DNA of 64,000 bases from Anderseniella sp. Its GTDB lineage: Bacteria; Pseudomonadota; Alphaproteobacteria; Rhizobiales; Aestuariivirgaceae. Location: the NCBI GenBank assembly GCA_028289645.1, contig JANQOK010000015.1, positions 1 to 64,000 of the forward strand, in the 5' to 3' direction. The notes beneath the pieces are model-generated. The model was not told the DNA's origin. It worked only from the letters and a program-made list of their open reading frames with translations, and made no database searches. Positions 2,815 through 20,940 of the stretch are shown piece after piece. The translations under genes and the position numbers were made by a program. The number at the start of each line of letters is the position of its first letter. Positions within the stretch are counted from its first letter, which is position 1.

Positions 2815-3095
2815 TACGCGCCTTATATGGTGAAATGCCCCCAACTTGCCAGAGCTAACAAGGTGTCGCGTTCATAACTGCGAAGCGGCGGGTAAAGCTG
2901 TTCAGCAACATAACATTGACCTTGAGCTGCAATTACCCTATTGAACCGGCCACTCCAGATGCCAAAATGAATTGGCAGGCTTACTGACACATGGGTGCAT
3001 GCATTTGTTCCCGGGGGGTCAGGGGTCCACATCCGTCCGCGAAGGTTCGCGCACGGGTGCCATTTTGCTTTGCGTAACCGGTTTGGGAAAACGAT

Positions 3096-19754: not shown

Positions 19755-20074
19755 TATCGCTCACGCAATCAGCCGCTTGTTGGTGGTCGAACAGCTTTGT
19801 TCGCTTCGCTCAGGCCGTTCTCCGTGCCTGAAACTCTGTTGAACCTTACAATATCTCATCATTGTCACCCTCGGGCTTGTCCCGAGGGTCCACTGCAACG
19901 GTGTATGGATCCTCGGGACAAGCCCGAGGATGACAAACTGAGACGCTATCTGGACCGGAACAACGGTTTTGATGAACGCCTCCGAGGCACATAGTGCCGA
20001 GGCAAGGCCGACTGGCCGCCGCACGAAGTGCGCCCTAGCGGAGCGCAGCCGTCAGGCTGCTTGCGTGAGCGATA
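19755..20074. repeat. Intergenic structured repeat, copy 1 (~320 bp), with terminal inverted repeats
   Basis: TATCGCTCACGCAA...TTGCGTGAGCGATA ends; internal sequence shared with 20650-20940, including TGGTCGAACAGCTTtgTTCGCTTCGCTCAGGCCGTTCTCCGTGCCTGAAACTCTGTTGAACCTTACA. Confidence 0.9.
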
Positions 20075-20100
20075 TAAACCAACCAACCCCACAAACAAAA

Positions 20101-20126
20101 ACACCGCCGGAAACATCCGGCGGTGT
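20101..20126 (-). terminator. Hairpin terminator for the small minus-strand gene
   Basis: ACACCGCCGGA-AACA-TCCGGCGGTGT followed on the minus strand by TTTTTGTTTG. Confidence 0.75.
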
Positions 20127-20153
20127 CTTCATTTCAATTCGCTCTGGCGTCAA

Positions 20154-20441
20154 TCAGTAGCCGCGGCGGTACATGCAACGCTCCCAGCGCCATGTGTGCC
20201 AGCCAAAGCGGCGGGCGCAGCGCCGTGCCGAACGGCGGTAGTGGCGGCCGCCGCGATAGCCATGGCCGGGATCGCCGTAATAGCCGCCATGGGCGTGGGC
20301 AGCAGCAGCAAGACCCAGGGCTGTGACCGCGCCGAAACCGAGGAAGATCTTTTCCTTCTTGGACAGGGCCTGTGCAGGTGAAGCCGATGCGGCAGCAATG
20401 GTCAGTGCGGCAATGGCGGCAATGGCGGTTTTCTTGAACAT
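20154..20441 (-). CDS. Small secreted Gly/His/Arg-rich protein
   Basis: MFKKTAIAAIAALTIAAASASPAQA signal peptide then HAHGGYYGDPGHGYRGGRHYRRSARRCARRFGWHTWRWERCMYRRGY. Confidence 0.75.
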   Translation of the reverse strand: MFKKTAIAAIAALTIAAASASPAQALSKKEKIFLGFGAVTALGLAAAAHAHGGYYGDPGHGYRGGRHYRRSARRCARRFGWHTWRWERCMYRRGY

Positions 20442-20649
20442 CTCTCGTCTCCTAAAGTCTCGTTATCTGTTCTTTTCTTGCCTGACGCCCCGGTGCCGGA
20501 GCGGCTGGTCTTCAAATCAACTGTCCCCAATCTAGTAGGACAGCCCTGAACCAAACCTGAGCCGGGCGTTCACATGAGGTTCATGTGGGCAGAGAGGTCT
20601 TGGGCGGAGTTATTCAGAGAGGTTTGGTTGTGAGGCAAGGAGTGTTTTA

Positions 20650-20940
20650 TTCCGCTCACGCAAGCAGCCTGGCGGCTGCAGCATGTTTTGTGGTCGAACA
20701 GCTTTCTTCGCTTCGCTCAGGCCGTTCTCCGTGCCTGAAACTCTGTTGAACCTTACATTATCTCATTGTCACCCTCGGGCTTGTCCCGAGGGTGACAAAT
20801 GGAGAAGGTATCTGAACCGGAACAACGGTTTTGATAGGCCCCTCAGAGGCACGCGAGTGCCGAGGCAAGCGCGACTGCGCGCCGCACGAAGTGCGCCCCC
20901 GCGGAGCGGTTGGCGCAAGCCAACTCGCGTGAGCGATGTA
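20650..20940. repeat. Intergenic structured repeat, copy 2 (~291 bp)
   Basis: Same order and core sequence as 19755-20074; contains TTGTCACCCTCGGG-CTTGT-CCCGAGGGTGACAA perfect hairpin; ends CGCTCACGCAA...CGCGTGAGCGATG. Confidence 0.9.

Follow-up and report, generated by a model that had tools for sequence, protein, structure and literature searches.

A modular folded repeat with inverted ends on both sides of a small Anderseniella gene, and its relatives across the Alphaproteobacteria

Repeats that fold are a familiar sight between bacterial genes, and here we describe one with a complex, modular anatomy. It was found in a 64,000-nucleotide stretch of the Anderseniella sp. genome (contig JANQOK010000015.1, positions 1 to 64,000; "the window"), where two intergenic stretches are probably copies of a folded repeat with inverted ends that is non-autonomous and dispersed over the chromosome, a selfish element of the REPIN/MITE kind. 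The first-pass annotation of the window had proposed either a non-autonomous mobile element or a dispersed folded RNA or ssDNA repeat. Dispersal, inverted ends, presence or absence at sites and covariation all fit that proposal. The core of the repeat ends composite elements that carry two END hairpins in inverted orientation, and these elements are present at a given site in some congeners and absent in others, occur either way round at orthologous sites, and form tandem arrays. The fold and the distribution are the strongest parts of our account, and the mechanism of movement is the weakest.

Two composite copies and the grammar of the element

The two copies lie between a lytic transglycosylase gene on the left (SLT_2, PF13406) and an Iso_dh-family gene on the right, which is leuB by context. 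All strings and coordinates quoted in the first-pass annotation were located in the window sequence. The two copies, described there as sharing an ordered core, match in four gap-free blocks of 80, 80, 53 and 31 nt, which follow each other in the same order with 80-100% identity. These matches are far above chance expectation, and BLAST aligns copy 1 with copy 2 at E = 3e-56. As had been claimed, no ORF accounts for the element; the listed ORFs overlap in several frames, as expected of GC-rich DNA, and neither copy contains a long conserved one.

Copy 1 (19755-20074, plus strand) can be read as a partial left END followed by C-D-d-A-END. Its edges are the previously noted TATCGCTCACGCAA (19755-19768) and TTGCGTGAGCGATA (20061-20074). 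The left terminal inverted repeat is a shortened END (TATCGCTCACGCAATCAGCC, 19755-19774, minus strand) that pairs with 20055-20074. Then follow, all on the plus strand, module C (TGGTCGAACAGCTT-hairpin-CCGTTCTCCGTGCC, 19784-19845), an inserted inverted pair of CGTC-type REPs (module D d, 19862-19936, with arms 19862-19892 and 19906-19936 that are 94% complementary), the hairpin H4 (GGCAC-ATA-GTGCC, 19986-19998), which has stem variants among other copies, and the core (19999-20073). The core hosts hairpins H3 (20006-20017), H2 (20021-20031) and H1 (20045-20060), and scores 93.2 bits with covariance model R1 (E=1.4e-19).

Copy 2 (20651-20938, plus strand) has the order END(inverted)-C-D-A-END and is likewise bounded by an inverted repeat, with CGCTCACGC on the left and GCGTGAGCG on the right. 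Its left END is a hairpin (CGCTCACGCAAGCAGCC-TGGC-GGCTGC, 20651-20679, minus strand). On the plus strand lie module C (20691-20752), a lone inserted CGTC-type REP (module D, 20763-20798), H4 (GGCAC-GCGA-GTGCC, 20848-20861) and the core (20862-20937; model R1, 97.6 bits, E=1.3e-20) with H3 (20869-20880), H2 (20884-20894) and H1 (20909-20924). Besides the two cores, nothing in the whole window scores above 16 bits with the covariance model. Elsewhere, window positions 3015-3067 match the ffh sRNA family of Rfam (RF01793).

The hairpin pairs that had drawn attention to the locus were located as H3 (GGCC-GACT-GGCC in copy 1, GCGC-GACT-GCGC in copy 2) and H1 (GCAGCC-GTCA-GGCTGC and GTTGGC-GCAA-GCCAAC). 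The middle part, CACCCTCGGGCTTGTCCCGAGGGT, had also been counted to the element. It is present, but it is not the element's own: it belongs to a separate, widespread CGTC-type REP that has been inserted.

Copies read by eye, together with modules annotated with profile HMMs, give the grammar e-b-C-L-A-E, or in reverse e-a-l-c-B-E. E is the END hairpin of ~45 nt, which stands at both sides in inverted orientation. Module C, a hairpin, may be repeated in tandem 44-bp arrays, L denotes a linker, and the inner modules A and B are alternatives to each other. The inverted CGTC-type REP pairs (D or R), each unit with a stem of 8-9 bp, a 5-nt loop and a CCA tail, are inserted between C and A. Tandem A-E arrays with a period of ~95 bp are found in the congener G001 and in other genera. 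In its terminal inverted repeats, lack of coding capacity and high copy number (~40 loci), the element resembles a MITE.

Some loci depart from this scheme. Module C occurs alone in short tandem arrays with a period of 44-45 bp (L081 1609-1810; L091 3366-3600; G004:C77:2605-2784), and in Oricola nitratireducens (L241 2871-3229) four near-identical core units stand in tandem with a period of ~94 bp. At L012 (G000:C6:708.8-709.0k) the inverted repeat runs ~17 nt past the usual END into the flank (GGTTGGTGACTTGATATCGC... / ...GCGATATCAAGTCACCAACC).

Dispersal and the conserved fold of the core

The first-pass annotation had placed both copies at one locus, which is correct as far as it goes; as a local pair they are misread, for they are two among ~40 dispersed loci. 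A BLAST search of the 4.8-Mb genome they come from (G000) with copy 1 returned 99 pieces at roughly 40 loci. The suggested search of relatives found the element in all five Anderseniella congeners searched, e.g. with 70 core matches to the covariance model in G001.

Among 298 genomes from 123 genera of the order (Hyphomicrobiales for Anderseniella in the NCBI taxonomy), 64 genomes and 45 genera carry the core, and copy counts per genome are often to be read as "at least". One Tepidamorphaceae genome holds 136 matches, and a Rhodospirillaceae genome of 1.3 Mb holds 40. Named hosts of the core include Mesorhizobium, Pseudaminobacter, Roseibium, Oricola, Aurantimonas, Brucella oryzae, Rhodobium, Erythrobacter and one Caulobacteraceae genome. 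A phylum-wide sample of 399 genomes contained 15 positives, all of them Alphaproteobacteria, with no match outside that class. Phages gave no core match, plasmids one weak match and a viral collection matches on 3 of 2.9 million contigs. With phage and viral matches nearly absent, the element is therefore not phage-borne.

The core spans ~75 nt and folds into the three hairpins H3, whose GACY loop hardly varies, H2 and H1; the blocks GCAAG, GCGGAG and GTGAG are fixed. The first-pass annotation had described the stem changes between the two window copies as compensatory, and this is borne out by strong covariation across 130 distinct sequences. Our first alignment held 28 cores, distant genera included; it was made without a model, and the structure was picked by eye from the same alignment. 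Its covariation was 0.536, compared with 0.144 for shuffles and at most 0.063 for slid partners. A covariance model built from it returned 167 matches in 100 loci. The 130 distinct sequences among these, once aligned, gave a covariation of 0.581 (shuffled 0.128, slid partners at most 0.044), with 93% of cells paired and double changes in 13 of the 14 pairs, although this alignment leans towards the structure because it was fitted to the model. A long-range pairing between GCAAG and CTTGC was dropped, as the partner turns into CTGGC while GCAAG stays.

From the covariation we can conclude that something acts on the folded strand, but not that a function is under selection, because imperfect palindromes that are repaired from a template can in principle covary too.

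The loops carry further information. That of H3 is GACT or GACC in 99 of 102 hairpins, on stems with several GC arrangements, and H1 has 55 different stems in the class-wide core set. At the level of the genus, the top-strand loops of H1, H2 and H4 are almost all G-N-A or G-N-N-A. Class-wide, H1 loops have the form G..A in 36 of 59 distinct hairpins and T..C in none (p = 2.9e-11, for hairpins that are partly non-independent). In the G-N-N-A loops, pyrimidines are as common as purines at position three, so these are not GNRA loops. Hairpin loops of the types G-N-A and G-N-N-A are especially stable in DNA, and for this reason they hint at single-stranded DNA, while being compatible with RNA too. 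Nearest-neighbour energies computed for both strands do not favour the top strand: with RNA parameters the strands are equal, and DNA parameters slightly favour the bottom one.

Site dynamics, genomic contexts and movement

G000 and G001 have some 20 occupied sites in common, and congeners share most of their sites. Where the flanks are collinear, ~8 of 18 elements at shared sites are inverted between the two species and ~10 are not. This is a manual count with L096 and L135 added, in which some calls are based on one flank and the two window-type right-hand sites are counted once because they evolve together. In nearly all of the inverted pairs, at least one of the two species has ENDs in inverted orientation at both edges of the element, and recombination between the ENDs may therefore turn elements around in place. 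Independent insertion in opposite orientation could also produce such differences.

Empty sites, which the first-pass annotation had named as a check, do exist: three G000 elements have counterparts with contiguous flanks in relatives. One element is absent from all four congeners tested (G001, G003, G004 and G005). G001 and G004 also lack the other two, but G003 and G005 show gaps of element size there; gain versus loss is polarised at just one of the three sites. The empty sites gave no clear target-site duplication. TCAT stands on both sides at one of them, with flanks too diverged to judge; flanks differ by ~20% between the species, so that a clean duplication is not readable. The element is a dispersed and at least historically mobile repeat.

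The gene between the window copies adds another aspect of these dynamics. It encodes a small secreted protein of 95 aa (20154-20441, minus strand) that belongs to no Pfam family, and we found no evidence that it serves the element. A paralog in G000 (C8:314653-314937, L081) is flanked by elements as well, and the homologous block around gene and paralog ends inside the elements. The two gene copies are 97.2% identical in G001 and 88.4% in G000, compared with 80-81% between G000 and G001. Since identity within a species exceeds that between species, the cassette between the repeats evolves in concert in each species, and the repeats form its borders.

Could the repeat have spread with no transposition at all? 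An old repeat may have been carried around by gene conversion, unequal recombination and template switching, with covariation arising from palindrome-templated correction. Template switching is known to act on inverted repeats, and the many sites common to congeners, the tandem arrays and the concerted evolution of the cassette between ENDs would all be expected. We nevertheless consider this unlikely, given the element that is absent from four congeners, the insertions into uvrD, uvrB and glyS described below, and loops and linkers that are fixed class-wide, which templated correction alone would not preserve.

Elsewhere in the class, copies are also found inside genes and operons. Cores lie in frame inside UvrD in Oricola (two copies) and two Mesorhizobium, inside UvrB in Roseibium (three copies) and Aurantimonas, and inside the GlyS beta subunit in Aurantimonas. 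All of these inserts are read in one and the same frame, like GKRDRAPAGQAAPAE...VSE. In Mesorhizobium huakuii, Pseudaminobacter and Brucella oryzae, other copies occupy the spacer between 23S and 5S rRNA and are antisense to the rRNA. The core also lies 5 nt from the 3' ends of one tRNA-Ala and one tRNA-Thr gene, and several copies sit directly after stop codons. As a side observation, Rhizobiaceae-type genomes have few core copies, seemingly mostly in the 23S-5S spacer and antisense to rRNA (L190, L231, L257; G333, with four equal-scoring copies).

Placements like these, next to rRNA and tRNA genes or behind stop codons, together with strong covariation and the near-invariant GACY loop, are what a family of functional structured RNAs under RNA-level selection might show, e.g. 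3'-UTR stabilisers or processing or termination signals. That said, the core is sense in protein genes but antisense in the rRNA and tRNA contexts, orthologous sites carry it in both orientations, its copy number ranges from 0 to 136 with patchy occurrence, and its G-N-N-A loops differ from GNRA. A functional RNA family is, on balance, quite improbable.

If the repeat is moved, by what? A transposase with matching ends had been suggested as a search target, and our search, which covered Y1 transposases, found none. The Y1_Tnp domain (PF01797; IS200/RAYT) was not found in any of the eight genomes G000-G005, G008 and G052, some of which are incomplete, while the controls were positive. Over the order, a manual count gave Y1_Tnp in 14 of the 64 core-bearing genomes and in 27 of the 234 others, a weak association, and it is absent from 15 of the 18 genomes holding at least 10 cores. 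ORFs do lie between neighbouring cores 0.4-2.6 kb apart at 10 loci. The copies in G001 have no replication-direction bias (~14 versus 16 clusters, counted manually), which counts against a strict lagging-strand inserter, unless inversion has erased the bias.

These figures bear directly on whether we are looking at ordinary REPs or REPINs mobilised by a RAYT, a Y1 transposase of the IS200/IS605 type. The inverted pairs, clusters and small hairpins look the part, intragenic copies in uvr genes have been reported for REPs (PMC3733652), and Y1 is somewhat commoner in core-bearing genomes. Against this stand the missing Y1_Tnp in the eight genomes and in most of those rich in cores, a core that carries neither a GTAG nor a CGTC tag, and its size of ~75-95 nt with three to four hairpins versus 20-40 nt. 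We therefore regard ordinary RAYT-moved REPs as having a low probability. We give next to no probability to a local copy of a single sequence that then mutated at random, for which the ~0.6 kb between the copies might speak: there are ~40 dispersed loci, and the stems covary strongly. Neither outcome that the first-pass annotation had named as refuting its proposal occurred, be it just two copies genome-wide with no significant covariation or a local duplication whose stems are broken by mutation in relatives.

Returning to a selfish, non-autonomous repeat, we propose the following scenario. An enzyme of the host or of a mobile element would move the repeat in trans, recognising the folded strand with its G-N-A and G-N-N-A loops, probably as ssDNA during replication or recombination. 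Recombination between the inverted ENDs would flip the interior. Recombination together with gene conversion may build the arrays, swap modules A and B, and homogenise flanked gene cassettes. Persistence in genes and in rRNA and tRNA operons would then reflect insertion where it is tolerated, with an open frame on one strand and spacers for the other. A bolder version is that a single ancient selfish lineage spans the Alphaproteobacteria, that its folded single strand, with GACY and G-N(N)-A loops, is recognised by an undescribed non-RAYT enzyme, and that it inverts in place via its hairpin ends; we put this forward tentatively, as a possibility with the odds somewhat against it.

Relation to known repeat families

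Rfam 15 contains no relevant family for the element in either gathering or E-value mode. The novelty of the element rests on this and on its absence from the open-access papers searched, and a subscription paper could name it otherwise, with CIR or Bru-RS as the likeliest names.

A close parallel is with REPs, BIMEs and REPINs with their RAYTs (GTAG superfamily, PMC3733652; REPINs, PMC3116915). These too are high-copy folded intergenic repeats with inverted pairs and clusters, some of them in repair genes, uvr included (PMC3733652), and they are thought to be moved as folded single strands. The element differs in its core of three to four hairpins, whose loops and linkers are conserved class-wide. 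Membership of the GTAG REPs and REPINs was rejected: there is no GTAG at the hairpin foot, the core blocks are GCAAG, GACY, GCGGAG and GTGAG, and no RAYT was found in the genus. CGTC REPs are abundant in Alphaproteobacteria (PMC3733652). Module D/R of the window copies is of this type, as a guest inside an element that itself lacks the CGTC tag.

The Caulobacter CcrM-associated intergenic repeats (CIR; Chen & Shapiro 2003), as they are described in PMC2229807, are multi-armed, ~110 bp long and absent from genes, with GANTC in a terminal loop and stops in all frames. The likeness lies in size range, multiple arms, conservation across Alphaproteobacteria and a mostly intergenic location. Going by that description, CIR was set apart: GANTC is found in 2 of 130 cores and in neither window copy, and the element has an open frame through UvrD, UvrB and GlyS, unlike CIR as described there. 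Bru-RS1 and Bru-RS2 of Brucella (103-106 bp, palindromic, 35-40 or more copies) resemble the element in size, palindromic make-up, copy number and a related host group. Compared by description, they differ in that, of eight genomes from the genus that includes Brucella oryzae, only two carry the core, with 4 and 1 copies; classical Brucella may lie outside this sample.

In its insertion behaviour the element resembles the Rickettsia palindromic elements (RPE), which lie in frame in protein genes and are read in one frame (reviewed in PMC10969869), as are the inserts in UvrD, UvrB and GlyS. RPE hosts belong to a different order, and the element is mostly intergenic and modular. The Correia elements of Neisseria, a MITE for which inversion has been reported (as cited in PMC10969869), are similarly bounded by inverted repeats, form hairpins and are able to invert. 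On that account they offer a precedent for inversion of the element, which we deduce from species comparison, in an unrelated host and with unrelated sequence.

Among these systems, we place the element as a variant of the REP/MITE kind that is modular and spans a class. Families of short folded repeats are mostly described at the level of a species or genus, whereas this core keeps its fold, loops and linkers across a class, so that covariation and loop statistics give access to its likely active strand and to the features that are recognised. Two questions also become open to test: which agent mobilises palindromic repeats where a genome has no RAYT, and at what frequency elements of this kind invert or join essential proteins and rRNA operons.
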